Source: an uncultured bacterium (GTDB lineage: Bacteria > Cyanobacteriota > Vampirovibrionia > Gastranaerophilales > Gastranaerophilaceae). Taken from it: a stretch of 34,751 bases of DNA. Numbering within the stretch: position 1 is the first letter of the stretch; every line of letters starts with the position of its first letter. Below the pieces are notes generated by a model. The model was not told the DNA's origin. It did no database searches and saw nothing but the letters and a program-made list of their open reading frames with translations. The DNA is taken from NCBI GenBank assembly GCA_949293185.1, contig CASFCQ010000014.1:1-34751 (forward strand), read 5' to 3'. The position numbers and the translations under genes were made by a program. Below, one piece after another: positions 10,924 through 26,109 of this stretch.

Positions 10924-13900
10924 ATGAAAATTTTAAAATGGATTTTAATATTTTTCTGTTCGCTCGTAATACTCGGCTATCTCGGGCTTTATCTTATACT
11001 GCCGTACTTTTTAAATAAAAAAGACTATTCAAAAGAACTTGCAAAAATTATTAAAGATGAGACAGGGCTTGTTGTTTTGATTCACAATTACAAGCTCAAT
11101 GTATCACCGGCTTTGAATCTTAATATAAAAGCCGGTGAAATAAAAGCTTTTTATCCGGATTACAGGCAGTTTTTAAACATAAAAAATTCGGATTTAACCG
11201 TATCAACCCTTTATTTGCTGAGAAAAGAAATAAAAATAAATAAACTAAAAGCTGACGAACTTCAGTTTTCCACAAAACTTTTAAAAAACGGAAAAACCAG
11301 TATTCAACAATATTTTGAAAAAAATATAAAAAGTGACAAATACGCTTACAAGTTTTCCAAAAAACATCCTAATATCTATATAAATAACTATATAATCAAA
11401 TTAAAAGACGAGGAGTCCGGTCAAAAATTCAAACTAAAAGGCAAAAACTATAAATCCGTTCAAAGTCTTGATTTTAAAAATATAAATATTCGTACAGAAG
11501 GTGATTTGTACTGCTTCGACAAAAAATATCTGCATTACAATGCTGCACTTGAAGTTCCGTCTGTGTTATTTGAAAACACTGATAAAATGCTTATTGATTT
11601 TACGATTGATGACTTATATAAGTACGATTTTTTTGCAAACGTCACTGCTAACCTGAAAATCCATGAAAAGAACAAAAAGTTCGACTACGTAAGCGGCAGA
11701 GCTGATGTTGACAACTTTAAACTAAAACTGGGGAACAAAATATTGCCGCCCAGCTACTTCCATATAGTATTCAGCAAAGATAATGCAAAATTAAACTCAA
11801 AATTCTATACAAATATCAATGAAGCTGCTGATATAAATGCGGATATAAAACTTTCACGACCGTATAAAATTAATATGCGCTGCAAGTGCCCTAATGCCGA
11901 TATATCTAATTTACAAAAGACTGTTGTGCCTGTTTTGAACTTGTTCAAGATAAAAAATAACCTGTCCGACTTTTCGGCAAACGGAAAGTTAAGCGCAGAT
12001 TTCAGGCTTTTAACGGATTTAAAAACAATAAATTCAAGCGGTACATTAAAAATAACAAATGCCTCGCTTTCTCACAAGAGTGTGCCGCTAAGGATAATGA
12101 AAGCGAATGCATTGATTGATTTTTCCAACAATGCTGTTAATATCAGACAATCTGATATGCTTGTCAACAATCAGCCGCTTAAAATCACCGGTAATATAGA
12201 TAAACATGCAATCGGCGACATAACAATTACTGCGGATAATTTGGATTTAAACCACATATTGAATGCATTTCCATCCTTTAAACCCGATAAAAATATTAAT
12301 GTAATCTCAGGCAAAGTTTCATTAAAAGCAAATCTGAAAGGTAAATTAGATACAGTAAAACCTGCAGTAAAAATTAATATAAAGAATTTTGCCGCCATAG
12401 AGACAATAAAAAATATAAAAATTTCAGTATCTGAAATTTTTGTAAAAGCCTCCTCAAATCAACAAAAATATTCAGGTGATATTAATTTAAAAAATATAAA
12501 TTGTTTTTCAAAATTAATACCTAATGCAGCCAATACAATAAAATCAGATATAATCACAGCTAAAATAACAAATGAAAAAATTCAAATATTACCGGCAAAA
12601 ATAAATGCCGGCAATGCAAAATTAACACTCAGCGGAACTATCGACAACTACCAGACGACACCTGCTGCAGATATTCTTGTACAGGGAACAATTGATACAG
12701 CTCTTATAAAAAGCTTTATCCCTGACGGGCAAAAAATTCTCGCAAAAGGCTATCTGCCCGTTAAAGCCAATATAAAATATAAAAATGATAAAACGGAACT
12801 TGTGCTAAAACTTCTCGCTAACAGATATAATTATTTAACCCCGTTAATAATAAAAAGTTTTAATAATATAACAACCCTCACAGAGATTAATGCACTGCTA
12901 ACAGGGGATGAATTATTGGTTAACAACGCTGTAATGTACTATGCCGGAGGCACAAACAGTCTGTTAAAAGAAATAAATACAACAAAACTGAAAAAAGCAT
13001 TTATTGCTGAAGGAAAAATAAATAATTTAAAATCGACTCCGCAGATTGAACATTTGCATATTGTTGTGCCTAACGACCTCGATATTAATATTCCAAACAC
13101 AAAAGACGGAACAGTCAGGGTTAATGCGGATATAACGGCAGCCGGCAGTCTGAATCAACCTAAAATCAGCGGCAAAATTAATGTCTCGCAGCTGTCGATA
13201 CCTTCACTTTTTGTTAACGCTCAGAATGTACTTGTAAATCTTAATCAAAATAAAATAGAGGCAAAGATAGAAGATTTGAACATAAACGATATGAAAGTGT
13301 CGTTAGCAATAAATGCCGAACCTGATGTACTTTCAACCAACAAAATAGATTATATAAAATTAAGTTCCCAATACATTGATATGGATTATCTGATGGGATT
13401 GATGTCCGTTGTTAATCCCAGTAAATATGCACCGGGCAATGATTTTCCTTATATAATTTCATCAGGAGATATTGATATTAAGTCTTTTAAAATGGGGGTT
13501 ATAAAAGCTCAAAATATAACTGCTCAAATAACTTCAAAATCAAATATTCTGTATATAAATAATCTGTTTGCCGATGCATACGGAGGAAAAGCAGCCGCAA
13601 AAATAACATACAGTTTTCCTTATACAAATATAAATGCGGATATACAAGCAAGAGGTCTCAATGCCACATCAGCTGCAGCAGCTTTTATGCCTGCTGATAA
13701 AGGAATATCCGGAACATTGGATTTTGATGCATCCGTAAATATGATTGGCACAACGCCTCAGCAGCAGCTGAATACATTACGCGGCAATGCCGATATACTG
13801 ATAAAAAACGGAAGATTGGGACAATTAGGACGTTTTGAACATTTTCTGTATGCACAGAATCTGTTATCTCAAAAACTTATCTATGCAAGTCTTAACAGTG

Positions 13901-17587: not shown

Positions 17588-17652
17588 TTAGTCCAGTATT
17601 GCGTCTAGTAATTTAAATTAAAGCTTTTTTTAGTCCAGTAATGCCTCTAAGA
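17588..17652 (-). repeat. Duplicated 3' end of the ribbon-helix-helix gene
   Basis: The last 23 bases of the gene (17630-17652) recur at 17588-17610 with five differences, 42 bases further downstream and in the same frame. The gene ends ILEALLD-stop; after two short stop-interrupted codon runs the second copy reads LLDAILD-stop. It looks like a decayed local duplication. Confidence 0.6.
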
Positions 17653-17818
17653 TTGTTGCGTTTTTCGCAGCCAGTGTGTTTTCTCTTACTTTATTTCTGT
17701 GAATGTAAGTTCTCAGAGCTTCGCGAATGAGTTCGCTTCTTGAACGATTTTCGTTTTCTGCAACTTGATCGATTTCATCTAAGAATTTTTCTGGCATAGA
17801 AATAAGTACTCTTGACAT
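17630..17818 (-). CDS. Ribbon-helix-helix (CopG/ParD-like) DNA-binding protein
   Basis: This 62-residue protein shows a clear RHH fold. Beta-strand residues SRVLISMPEKFL come first, then helix A (DEIDQVAENEN), the RSRSELIREALRTYI turn and helix B, and a short variable tail. Dimers insert the paired strands in the DNA major groove. The ATG follows CAGGAGGAAACTTT, an excellent ribosome-binding site. Four exact and one degenerate CGAGAGA repeats lie directly upstream (17837-17893), probably its own operators. No toxin gene is adjacent, so it looks like an orphan regulator rather than a toxin-antitoxin pair. Confidence 0.85.
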   Translation of the reverse strand: MSRVLISMPEKFLDEIDQVAENENRSRSELIREALRTYIHRNKVRENTLAAKNATILEALLD

Positions 17819-17836: not shown

Positions 17837-17893
17837 CTCTCGTTTTCTCTCGTGTTTTGTTTCTCTCGGTTGTTTCTCTTAATTATCTCTCGT
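17837..17893 (-). promoter_or_regulatory. CGAGAGA iterons, probable autoregulatory operators
   Basis: On the minus strand CGAGAGA occurs exactly at plus positions 17837-17843, 17847-17853, 17863-17869 and 17887-17893. A partial copy (TAAGAGA) is at 17876-17882. Spacings of 10, 16, 13 and 11 bases are close to helical turns. They fill the 5' leader of the RHH gene between an AT-rich, promoter-like block and the ribosome-binding site. RHH repressors typically bind such tandem short sites. Confidence 0.6.
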
Positions 17894-18115
17894 ACTTATA
17901 TAAAAAATTTTTTTATAGAAAAATTGCTTATTTTGTATATAAAAAGTATATTTTAGTTAACAAAACTTAATACTTTTGTAAAAAATCAAGCTATATGCGG
18001 CTTTTAGGCTAGTGCTAAATAGCCGGTACTAGAGAGTCATTTTTTATATTGAGGAAGAGTTTCGGAGTAGACTTTAGTCTGCCATTACTATATTTTTATT
18101 GATTTCTGCCGGTTT
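17894..18115. other. Intergenic stretch with small hairpins, no gene seen
   Basis: This part of the 405-base gap holds an AT-rich block (17894-17990) and two small hairpins: CTAGTGC/GTACTAG-type arms at 18009-18032 and GTAGAC/GTCTGC at 18067-18082. A weak plus-strand promoter (TTGCTT, 17 bases, TATATT near 17926-17954) could drive a short RNA. No protein frame with a plausible ribosome-binding site and no known RNA family was recognised. Confidence 0.3.
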
Positions 18116-22667: not shown

Positions 22668-23555
22668 TTATACTCCGGTCTTACTTACGGAAGATTTTCT
22701 CAATTTATTTTTTACAGGAATTTCGGATTTGTATACGACCTTCTTCCCGTCGCCGAGAACAGTCTTAACTTCTCTTATATCCCTTACCATACGTCTTAAT
22801 CCTTCCGGCTCAAGGCTGGCTGCCTGATCAGAACCCCAGAGAGTTCTGTCTGTAGTAATATGTCTTTCAACCGCATTTGCGCCCAATTCTACTGACAAAA
22901 TCGAGGGCAAGAGTCCTTTTTCGTGTCCGCTGTAACCAACAGGGCAATTAAATTCTTTCCTGAATTCTTCTATGACTCTGAGATTTATTTCGCTGTGTGC
23001 GGTAGGGTAGGTTGAGGTGCAATGAAACAGAACTAAATTCTCCTGTCCTAACAAATCAACTGCGTGTCTTATTTCTTCCATTGTGCTCATGCCTGTTGAA
23101 AGGAGTATTGGTTTACCGAGTGATTTTAGCTTTAGAAGAAATTCGTCATTAGTCAGCATTGCTGATGCGACTTTATGACAGGGCACATTAAACTGCTCAA
23201 TAAAGTCTATTGAATCAACATCCCAACAGGAGGCAAACCACATTATGTTTTGTGATTTACAGTATCTGTCTATCTCGCAGTAATCTTCATAACTCAATTC
23301 GAGCCCCAGTTTTAAATCACGGTTTGTGTTGCCGTAATAATTCGGTCTGTATACATCAAGCTCTTCAGGTGTATATACCTTTGTAACCGTTCTTTTTTGA
23401 AATTTTACGGCATCACAGCCTGCCGCAACAGCTTCGTCAATCATCTTTTTGGCAAGAACAACTGTTCCGTTGTGGTTTATACCGATTTCTGCAATTATAA
23501 AACACGGGAAATCGTCCCCTATAGTTTTGTTTCCTATTTGTACGTTGTATCTCAC
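22668..23555 (-). CDS. NeuB-family nonulosonate (sialic acid-like) synthase, no SAF domain
   Basis: The 295-residue TIM-barrel synthase has IIAEIGINHNG (about 20-30), GCDAVKFQKR, KVASAMLTNDEFLLKL, ILLSTGMSTMEEI, FHCTSTYPT, VGYSGHE, and ERHITTDRTLWGSDQAASLEP. The family condenses phosphoenolpyruvate with an N-acyl-hexosamine (or its phosphate) to a nine-carbon acid. Canonical NeuB has about 350 residues with a C-terminal SAF/antifreeze-like domain; here the protein stops at EIPVKNKLRKS, right where that domain would begin. The end is clean and operon spacing is intact, so this looks like a natural short form. It starts with GTG after GGAGCACATT. The sugar made (sialic, legionaminic, KDN-like) cannot be decided. 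Confidence 0.9.
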   Translation of the reverse strand: MRYNVQIGNKTIGDDFPCFIIAEIGINHNGTVVLAKKMIDEAVAAGCDAVKFQKRTVTKVYTPEELDVYRPNYYGNTNRDLKLGLELSYEDYCEIDRYCKSQNIMWFASCWDVDSIDFIEQFNVPCHKVASAMLTNDEFLLKLKSLGKPILLSTGMSTMEEIRHAVDLLGQENLVLFHCTSTYPTAHSEINLRVIEEFRKEFNCPVGYSGHEKGLLPSILSVELGANAVERHITTDRTLWGSDQAASLEPEGLRRMVRDIREVKTVLGDGKKVVYKSEIPVKNKLRKSSVSKTGV

Positions 23556-24244: not shown

Positions 24245-24460
24245 ATGACATATACTGTACTTGAATATCCCGCACTGGTATATAAAAGCAAAAACAATAC
24301 CTATATAGCCAACTGTATTATAAAAAAGATGGTTGGCTACGGTAAAAGTGAATATATTGCCGTAAAAAATCTTGAAAACATTCTAAACCGTAACAAAACG
24401 GATTTTGCCGTGAAGGTAAAGCCGGTTTACAAGTTTCTTTCAAAACTTAACGCAAATTAA
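24245..24460 (+). CDS. HicB-like small protein
   Basis: This 71-residue protein has an ATG after GAGAAAGGTTCTCA. The first 50 residues (YPALVYKSKNNTYIANCIIK, then GYGKSEYIAVKNLENIL) fit the HicB partial-RNase-H-like pattern: two strands, a Gly turn, then an amphipathic helix with the EA-L-NL type spacing. No DNA-binding extension follows. HicB proteins are antitoxins to HicA, but no HicA-like gene is adjacent. It could be a solitary HicB-fold protein. Its TAA interlocks with the TAA of the convergent 54-residue gene. Confidence 0.5.
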   Translation: MTYTVLEYPALVYKSKNNTYIANCIIKKMVGYGKSEYIAVKNLENILNRNKTDFAVKVKPVYKFLSKLNAN

Positions 24461-24621
24461 GCTATCTTAAGTTCAAAGTTTTCCGCAATAGATATTTTAG
24501 GAAGAGTTAATTTTATTTTTGGCAGCTTGCCTATAGGCATGGTAGCTATGTTGCTTACTCTTTCAGAAATGTTGTAATCATACGGATAGTTTTGTTGTCT
24601 TTTCTCTTCAAAATAATACAT
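24457..24621 (-). CDS. Small unknown protein of 54 residues
   Basis: This gene is below common length cut-offs. The minus-strand ATG at 24619-24621 is preceded by AAAAAGGGATAAAAT, a good ribosome-binding site, and the frame runs 54 codons to a TAA at 24457-24459. The protein starts MYYFEEKRQQNYPYDY and has a repeated Pro-Lys-Ile pattern (IGKLPKIKLTLPKISIAE). There is no signal peptide or membrane segment and no recognised family. Three CTCTCG-type iterons lie just upstream. It may pair with the convergent HicB-like gene or belong to the RHH regulon; both are inference. Confidence 0.5.
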   Translation of the reverse strand: MYYFEEKRQQNYPYDYNISERVSNIATMPIGKLPKIKLTLPKISIAENFELKIA

Positions 24622-24636
24622 ATTTTATCCCTTTTT

Positions 24637-24669
24637 ACTCTCTAGTTTTACTCTCGATTTAATCCCTCG
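24637..24669 (-). promoter_or_regulatory. Second set of CGAGAGA-type iterons at exact 13-base spacing
   Basis: On the plus strand ACTCTCT (24637-24643), ACTCTCG (24650-24656) and TCCCTCG (24663-24669) are spaced exactly 13 bases apart. They match the TCTCTCG (minus CGAGAGA) units before the RHH gene at 5 or 6 of 7 positions. They lie between the 54-residue gene (minus) and the glutamine synthetase gene (plus), so they could control either. The RHH protein at 17630-17818 is the obvious candidate binder. Confidence 0.5.
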
Positions 24670-24729
24670 TATATTTATAAAAACTTTTAGGTAAAAAATA
24701 TTTACTATTTATATATCCTTTATTAAGAA

Positions 24730-26109
24730 ATGTTAAAAGATATTTACTTGACCTTATGGCAAAAACTGTCAGATAATTTATTTATGCCGTCTGATAAAGA
24801 TATTAAAGAGTTAATAAAAAAATCAAATATAAAAACTATTTTTCTGCAATTCATTGATATAAACGGCGGAATAAAATCTTTGCAAATACCTTCGTCTCAT
24901 ATTGAGGAAATATTAAATAATGAGATAATGTTTGATGGCTCTACAATCAGCGGATTCAGGGATAATGAAACCCTGGATTTAAGATTATTTCCGGATAAAG
25001 ATACTTTTTTAATATTTCCTTTTAAAATTTCCAAACTGAAAAACACTGCAAGATTAATATGTGATATTCATAATTCCGACGGTACTCCGTTTGCTGGCTG
25101 TCCGCGCTCAAACCTAAAACGCGTTATCGAGAATGCGCGGCAATACGGATATACAATGCAGGTTGGACCTGAGGTCGAGTTTTTTCTCTTTAAGGTGGAT
25201 GAAAACCAAAATATTGTAAAAAGTGCGGAAAAAACAGGATACTATGATGTTAACCTTTCCCACAAATACGATGATGTTTTAACAAAAATCATGTTAACAC
25301 TGGGAGAAATGGGGTATGAAATTTCTGCACTTCATCACGAAGGCGCTGCCTTCCAGCATGAGATTGATCTCGGGTATGATGAAATATTAAAAACAGCTGA
25401 TAAATTGATAACATTTAAATTCGTGACTAAAACAATTGCACGCGATTTCGGTTTTCTGGCTTCTTTTATGCCTAAACCGGTGTACGGACAAAACGGTTCA
25501 GGCTTGCATTTAAATGTATCTTTGACGGATAAAAACGGAAAAAATGCTTTTTTTAAAGAAGATATGCCTAATCAATTATCAAATGAGGCTTTATATTCAA
25601 TAGGTTCTGTTTTAAAGAACATTAAAGGTATATCAGCGGTATTTAATTCAACGATAAACAGTTATAAAAGACTAGTTAAAGATTACGAAGCTCCGATATA
25701 CATTGTGTGGTCTGCTGTGACAAGAAGTGCGCTTATCAGAATACCTGTGAAAAAAGGTGAGTCAACCAGATTTGAACTCCGCTCGCCGGATTTTAGCATG
25801 AATCCTTATATCGCTTTTGCAGTACTTATGCAAACCTGCATGGATGGTTTGCGTAACAAAACAGAACCTCCTGCGCCTGTTGAAAAAAATTTATTCCTTC
25901 TTTCAAGCAATGAAATTAAACAGAGAAGAATAAAGTCTTTGCCGCGCAACCTGTTCAGCGCACTGGAGGAATTTGAAAAAAGCTATGTTGCAAGGATTGC
26001 ACTTGGAGATTATATTTTTGAAAACTTTTTATCTTCAAAGCAAAAAGAATGGAATGATTACCGAAAACAGGTTACACCCTGGGAACTGAAAAAATATTTA
26101 GACGTATAA
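24730..26109 (+). CDS. glnA: Glutamine synthetase, type I, short (alpha-like) form
   Basis: The 459-residue enzyme carries the core active-site motifs: MFDGSTISGF latch, GPEVEFFLF, HHEGAAFQHEID, NGSGLHLN, NSYKRLVKDYEAP, RSALIRIP and RFELRSPD. It condenses glutamate and ammonia with ATP. The adenylylation Tyr site is replaced by NLFLLSSNEIK (Phe), so covalent control by GlnE is not expected. Several normally fixed positions differ (HHEVA is HHEGA, and NRSP-type is TRSA), suggesting a divergent paralogue, though the metal and substrate ligands look intact. The ATG at 24730 has a weak ribosome-binding site; ATG 24784 fits the usual family start better. It is followed by gltD after 55 bases. Confidence 0.88.
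   Translation: MLKDIYLTLWQKLSDNLFMPSDKDIKELIKKSNIKTIFLQFIDINGGIKSLQIPSSHIEEILNNEIMFDGSTISGFRDNETLDLRLFPDKDTFLIFPFKISKLKNTARLICDIHNSDGTPFAGCPRSNLKRVIENARQYGYTMQVGPEVEFFLFKVDENQNIVKSAEKTGYYDVNLSHKYDDVLTKIMLTLGEMGYEISALHHEGAAFQHEIDLGYDEILKTADKLITFKFVTKTIARDFGFLASFMPKPVYGQNGSGLHLNVSLTDKNGKNAFFKEDMPNQLSNEALYSIGSVLKNIKGISAVFNSTINSYKRLVKDYEAPIYIVWSAVTRSALIRIPVKKGESTRFELRSPDFSMNPYIAFAVLMQTCMDGLRNKTEPPAPVEKNLFLLSSNEIKQRRIKSLPRNLFSALEEFEKSYVARIALGDYIFENFLSSKQKEWNDYRKQVTPWELKKYLDV

Follow-up and report, generated by a model that had tools for sequence, protein, structure and literature searches.

The window, which is the whole stretch of 34,751 nucleotides analysed here, belongs to a genome of 2,196,429 bases in 95 contigs that is 99% complete. 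On its minus strand are two small genes, each preceded by repeated units of the GAGAG type. The features concerned are the following.

24457..24621, minus strand: gene for a 54-residue protein of a conserved family, with the motif LPKI-x3-LPKI; a Pfam search gave no match
24622..24669, minus strand: 5' leader predicted for the mRNA of the 54-residue gene; it contains GAGGG, GAGAG, GAGAG and the RBS AGGGA; predicted pairing site of the candidate small RNA sRNA-A
24670..24705, minus strand: core promoter predicted for the 54-residue gene, TAAAT-N20-TATAAA, a variant of the GCAAT-N20-TATATA class
24720..24736, minus strand: TTAA-type box TTTAACATTTCTTAATA, common to promoters of the class
17630..17818, minus strand: gene for an RHH_1 (CopG-type) regulator of 62 residues, Pfam RHH_1 40.2 bits
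17819..17892, minus strand: 5' leader predicted for the mRNA of the RHH gene; it contains four GAGAG units and is likewise a predicted site of pairing with sRNA-A
17887..17927, minus strand: RHH promoter core, GCAAT-N20-TATATA-GTAC-GAGAG

Judged by its conservation, the 54-residue ORF is a real gene. It is present in 19 of 23 genomes of the same genus and in 0 of 17 others, pN/pS values range from 0.23 to 0.39 (six orthologs), and Y-x-Y as well as LPKI-x3-LPKI are invariant among the orthologous proteins. An ORF of 71 residues (24245-24460, plus strand) is convergent with it, and the stretch coding for the C-terminal VKPVYxFL of this ORF recurs beside several orthologs of the 54-residue gene. 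The RHH protein is a true member of RHH_1. Its gene was detected with 90-100% identity in 21 same-genus genomes, which are metagenome-derived and labelled Candidatus Gastranaerophilales, and two clear paralogs (81% and 58% identity) are found in its own genome.

Between the 54-residue ORF and the glutamine synthetase gene glnA, where the original prediction had located them, the plus strand contains CTCTCT (24638-24643), CTCTCG (24651-24656) and CCCTCG (24664-24669) with a step of exactly 13 bases. Positions and steps of these three CTCTCG-type units were as described, with only the middle unit being an exact CTCTCG. Trios with this step, no more than one mismatch per unit and one or more exact units were counted post hoc: the window has one, and none appeared in 60 dinucleotide shuffles. 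The distance to the RHH gene, stated as 7 kb, was measured as about 6.8 kb. The units had also been said to match iterons of the RHH gene in sequence and clustering. The RHH leader does contain four exact CTCTCG sequences; in the window, however, they are spaced by 24, 16 and 10 bp, and in the RHH leaders of relatives by 9-40 bp. Of the orthologs of the 54-residue gene, a single close one (L032) retains the 13-bp spacing, which the others have lost. Since the RHH spacings are variable, the match in clustering fails, and phased 13-bp iterons were rejected as an explanation.

Read on the minus strand, the unit region is ACGAGGGATTAAATCGAGAGTAAAACTAGAGAGTAAAAAGGGATAAAATATG, the leader of the 54-residue gene. 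A predicted -10 element (TATAAATATA) lies immediately ahead of the first GAGAG-type unit, and the RBS AGGGA follows immediately past the last one. In the RHH leader, TATATAAGTACGAGAGATAATTAAGAGAAACAACCGAGAGAAACAAAACACGAGAGAAAACGAGAGAACACAGGAGGAAACTTTATG, the units likewise read GAGAG on the sense strand, and in both leaders all of them are located 3' of the predicted -10 elements. From this layout it follows that both sets of units read in the sense direction of what is probably a transcript.

Inclusion of glutamine synthetase in a common regulon, as had been proposed, was not borne out, because the units belong to the divergent 54-residue leader and the glnA leader is devoid of them. Its pairing with the sRNA seed described below is worse than that of 388 of 403 leaders. 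Both promoters might be served by the TTAA box that lies between these genes. Conservation is lacking for the start of the glnA ORF at 24730, where the ATG is missing from several orthologous regions; the ATG at 24784, in better agreement with the usual GlnA start, is the more likely one.

The two promoters show a related architecture, consisting of a TTAA-type box, an A/T-rich GCAAT-like element and a TATATA-like -10 followed by GAG. The pattern GCAAT-N{18,30}-TATATA-N{1,8}-GAG was found at 20 places in the genome vs 0 for the reversed pattern, and at about 22 vs 1-2 places per same-genus genome. Of 122 distinct sites, 112 have a gap of 20 between GCAAT and TATATA. With GAG taken as the start of transcription, GCAAT would be positioned at about -36 and may therefore represent an unusual -35 element or the site of a regulator. 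The class, with its upstream TTAA box, is genome-wide (17887-17927 in the window; loci L066-L083). Small uncharacterised proteins, RHH genes and sRNAs are preceded by class promoters, which become thinner in other families of the order. The flagellin gene (L088/L222; contig C55 of the same genome, about 23464-23495, minus strand) has a sigma-28-like promoter (TAAA...CCGATATAAG) and three GAGAG units in its leader.

These counts bear on a possible, though on balance unlikely, reading in which the two genes share only the promoter class: one factor would act at both, transcripts would start at GAGAG, and the remaining GAGAG units would be Shine-Dalgarno-like or would form purine-rich, open, Rho-resistant leaders, with no sRNA pairing involved. 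It is consistent with the abundance of the class over its control and with the strand bias of the unit, GAGAG being present 37 times vs 5 for CTCTC in 403 leaders. For some bacteria, protection of nascent RNA against Rho by purine bias has been described (PMC13323073). What this reading does not account for is the fit of an invariant sRNA seed to the 54-residue and RHH leaders and not to other GA-rich class leaders or that of flagellin; fit beyond the CU repeat of the seed is left unexplained as well.

A more specific connection was revealed by the composite module CGAGRGAN{0,4}TTAAN{0,4}GAGA. In the whole 2.2-Mb genome it is present at two places, 17875-17892 in the RHH leader and 24652-24669 in the 54-residue leader. 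Among same-genus relatives, the RHH leader was matched in every genome having this RHH gene; further matches were in multicopy sRNA loci (four genomes) and at one place inside a coding region. Among other families the module was detected in 1 of 15 genomes, and the reversed module at 2 places in 40 genomes. As the module is confined to the two leaders in the genome, the link between the two small genes is real; the shared architecture of their promoters and the joint absence of both genes from two genomes of the genus agree with it. One regulator had been suggested to connect the small protein, glnA and the RHH gene itself. Of this suggestion the connection of the two small genes stands, and RHH iterons and glnA are unsupported.

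The same distribution could be expected if the RHH protein bound CGAGRGA-TTAA-GAGA as DNA just downstream of both starts and repressed its own gene and the 54-residue gene. RHH_1 proteins often autoregulate, one of the two modules lies ahead of the RHH gene itself, and both genes are jointly absent from two same-genus genomes, G004 and G005. Such an operator is nonetheless improbable. Paralog 2 (81% identical) has the same beta-strand RVLISM and a class promoter, but no GAGAG units are present in its leader in this genome, and the leaders of RHH orthologs from other lineages contain none or one. An operator at GAGAG was rejected on these grounds, the units not following the RHH protein; moreover, their spacing shows no phase, and they are probably transcribed. 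It is possible that RHH acts on the promoters at their GCAAT/TTAA part.

Outside the window, one class promoter on contig C51 has no ORF behind it. The locus runs from about 10,620 down to 10,420 on the minus strand and would specify an RNA of about 173 nt, designated sRNA-A. Immediately 5' of an intrinsic terminator it contains a CU-rich seed, 5'-GUUUUAUCCAUAUACUCUCUCUCUCUUAAUAUCCUCGUGUUUAUUUAAUG-3'. In orthologous loci, an invariant 5' end is followed by a diverged middle part, the invariant TTTTATCCATATA(CT)nTTAATATCCTCGTGTTTATTTAATG and the terminator, in whose stem changes between species are compensated (CTTG/CAAG, TTTG/CAAA, TTGCC/GGCAA). All 23 same-genus genomes contain a 30-nt core as a single perfect copy. 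The two remaining genomes of the family have it with 0 and 1 mismatch, the 15 genomes from other families lack it, and the reversed core gave no matches. The 5' arm TTTTATCCA is not retained in two sister genera. With a promoter and an intrinsic terminator of its own, the locus has the properties of an independent transcription unit as far as sequence can tell, and we infer that sRNA-A is made. In G004, G005, G023 and G024 sRNA-A is conserved, but the 54-residue gene and this RHH leader module were not found. Other targets must therefore hold the seed in these genomes, and the target set would be larger than the two mRNAs.

Duplex energies were calculated with ViennaRNA duplexfold, which ignores folding of either RNA, against a background of 993 leaders, taken from stretches that together make up about 38% of the genome; ranks are within this background and do not constitute a complete target ranking. 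By this measure, again with folding of either RNA ignored, the 54-residue leader and the seed gave -38.4 kcal/mol, first of 993 leaders, with the next at -32.7 kcal/mol and a background mean of -13.9 (sd 4.7). The RHH leader was third with -29.7 kcal/mol, the 54-residue leader being one of the two stronger ones. None of 300 shuffles of the 54-residue leader was as strong (z -5.8). When the seed was shuffled, 0 of 500 shuffles reached the value of the 54-residue leader and of two RHH orthologs, and 11 of 500 that of the RHH leader of the window, for which the pairing is modest. Across 21 genomes of the genus, the RHH leaders ranged from -28.2 to -40.6 kcal/mol (median -34.7), and nine RHH leaders outside this group had a median of -15.9 kcal/mol. 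For the 54-residue leaders of 19 genomes the median was -24.0 vs -13.5 for the background (p 9e-12 on the assumption that the sequences, though related, are independent); in relatives two are near background and many are 1-2 sd beyond shuffles. In conservation the predicted RHH pairing thus comes first; in strength, within this genome, the predicted 54-residue pairing does.

The CU repeat pairs with any GA-rich leader. With the repeat left out, the seed still fits: the 3' arm to the RHH leaders at the 5' end (0-1 of 403) and the 5' arm to the RBS of the 54-residue gene (4 of 403). The CGAGRGA-TTAA-GAGA module is complementary to the 3' arm, and both of its places in the genome are in these two leaders. 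In terms of predicted pairing, the seed is complementary to the target leaders beyond chance. sRNA-A as a general reader of class mRNAs was rejected, since most class leaders are only 1-2 sd beyond background.

According to the explanation we prefer, the GAGAG units would be transcribed, untranslated parts of leaders serving as pairing sites for the trans-acting sRNA-A. Its 3' arm (CUUAAUAUCCUCGU) would pair with the initial bases of the mRNA, ACGAGGGAUUAA in the 54-residue leader or ACGAGAGAUA(A)UUAAGAGA in the RHH leader, the CU repeat with the GAGAG units, and the 5' arm (GUUUUAUCC) with the RBS of the 54-residue gene (GGGAUAAAAU). Bound sRNA-A would cover the RBS and lower translation of the 54-residue protein and the RHH regulator. 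From the predicted duplexes and their conservation we infer that this pairing takes place in the cell and that its effect is repression. To co-repression of both mRNAs by the CU-rich sRNA-A as a whole we assign an even chance. The 5' end of sRNA-A itself could mask part of the seed.

For the purine-rich leaders, regulation by a protein of the CsrA type may also be considered. A CsrA gene is present and GGA is contained in both RBSs. It is GGA that CsrA reads, however, and the repeated unit is GAGAG; in addition, the leaders look unstructured, and regulation of the CsrA type is very improbable here. Hfq was not found with the Pfam model.

Further candidate sRNAs were noted. sRNA-B (L271/L193; contig C19 of the same genome, about 11340-11430, plus strand) has TTTTCTCTCTCTCTCTAATTCCTCTCTCTAATATGTGG ahead of a terminator; 32 of 40 genomes from across the order contain its 30-nt core, in 28 without mismatch, and its best-scoring partners among those tested were the flagellin leader and RHH paralog 2. 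sRNA-C (L169, L170, L171, L182, L183, L291-L297) is multicopy and has a GAGAGAT head and a terminator; ACACACTGACCTACCACACTAACCTACAC and CACACGAGGAATCA are conserved in it. Duplexes of multicopy sRNAs with GAGAGATAAATTAAGAGA heads and sRNA-A were calculated at -24 to -27 kcal/mol by duplexfold, folding of either RNA being ignored, and sRNA-C is a possible partner or sponge of sRNA-A. Two candidates, D and E, are located at L174/L201 and L172/L200, respectively: D of about 90 nt with CTACCACACACGAGGAA and a terminator, E of about 230 nt with CCACATAAACATATTAGAGATATTA, complementarity to sRNA-B and a terminator. In a search of the candidate sRNAs against Rfam none came near the gathering score. 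Rather doubtfully, these elements could be joined into an RNA network specific to the Gastranaerophilales, in which the class promoter would produce mRNAs and sRNAs headed by GAGAG, the CU-rich sRNA-A (in one family) and sRNA-B (across the order) would read these ends, and sRNA-C would act as sponge, with the RHH regulator and flagellin among the targets.

If co-repression by sRNA-A is correct, a non-photosynthetic sister lineage of cyanobacteria has a candidate sRNA whose targets can be named, and a repeat resembling a protein operator finds its explanation in RNA. It would also suggest that riboregulation operates there although no Hfq is recognisable. In the full-text literature searched, as judged by titles and abstracts, no work on sRNAs or promoters of Gastranaerophilales was found. 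Comparison of sRNA-A with Rfam 15 yielded nothing at or near the gathering score, LhrC, RepG and other described families included, so that the best explanation appears to be a known mechanism exerted by a new sRNA family.

Among known systems, autoregulators of the CopG/RHH_1 type with operator repeats resemble the present case in that the RHH gene product is a true RHH_1 protein. Here, however, the repeats are unphased and do not track the RHH protein across paralogs or lineages. RepG of Helicobacter pylori targets a simple repeat, a G-repeat, in an mRNA leader (PMC8295292). sRNA-A would read a leader repeat too, without kinship being claimed, but RepG reads a variable homopolymer, whereas sRNA-A would recognise GAGAG units scattered in two unlinked leaders, with its arms on the 5' end and the RBS. 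The LhrC sRNAs of Listeria monocytogenes are multicopy and trans-acting, bind mRNA through redundant CU-rich sites, impede translation and do not need Hfq for target interaction (PMC4132741). sRNA-A is likewise a CU-rich trans-acting candidate, with no kinship in sequence implied. LhrC exists in five copies with separate CU sites, whereas sRNA-A has a single copy, in which two specific arms flank one continuous CU repeat, and the predicted targets of sRNA-A are themselves repetitive.
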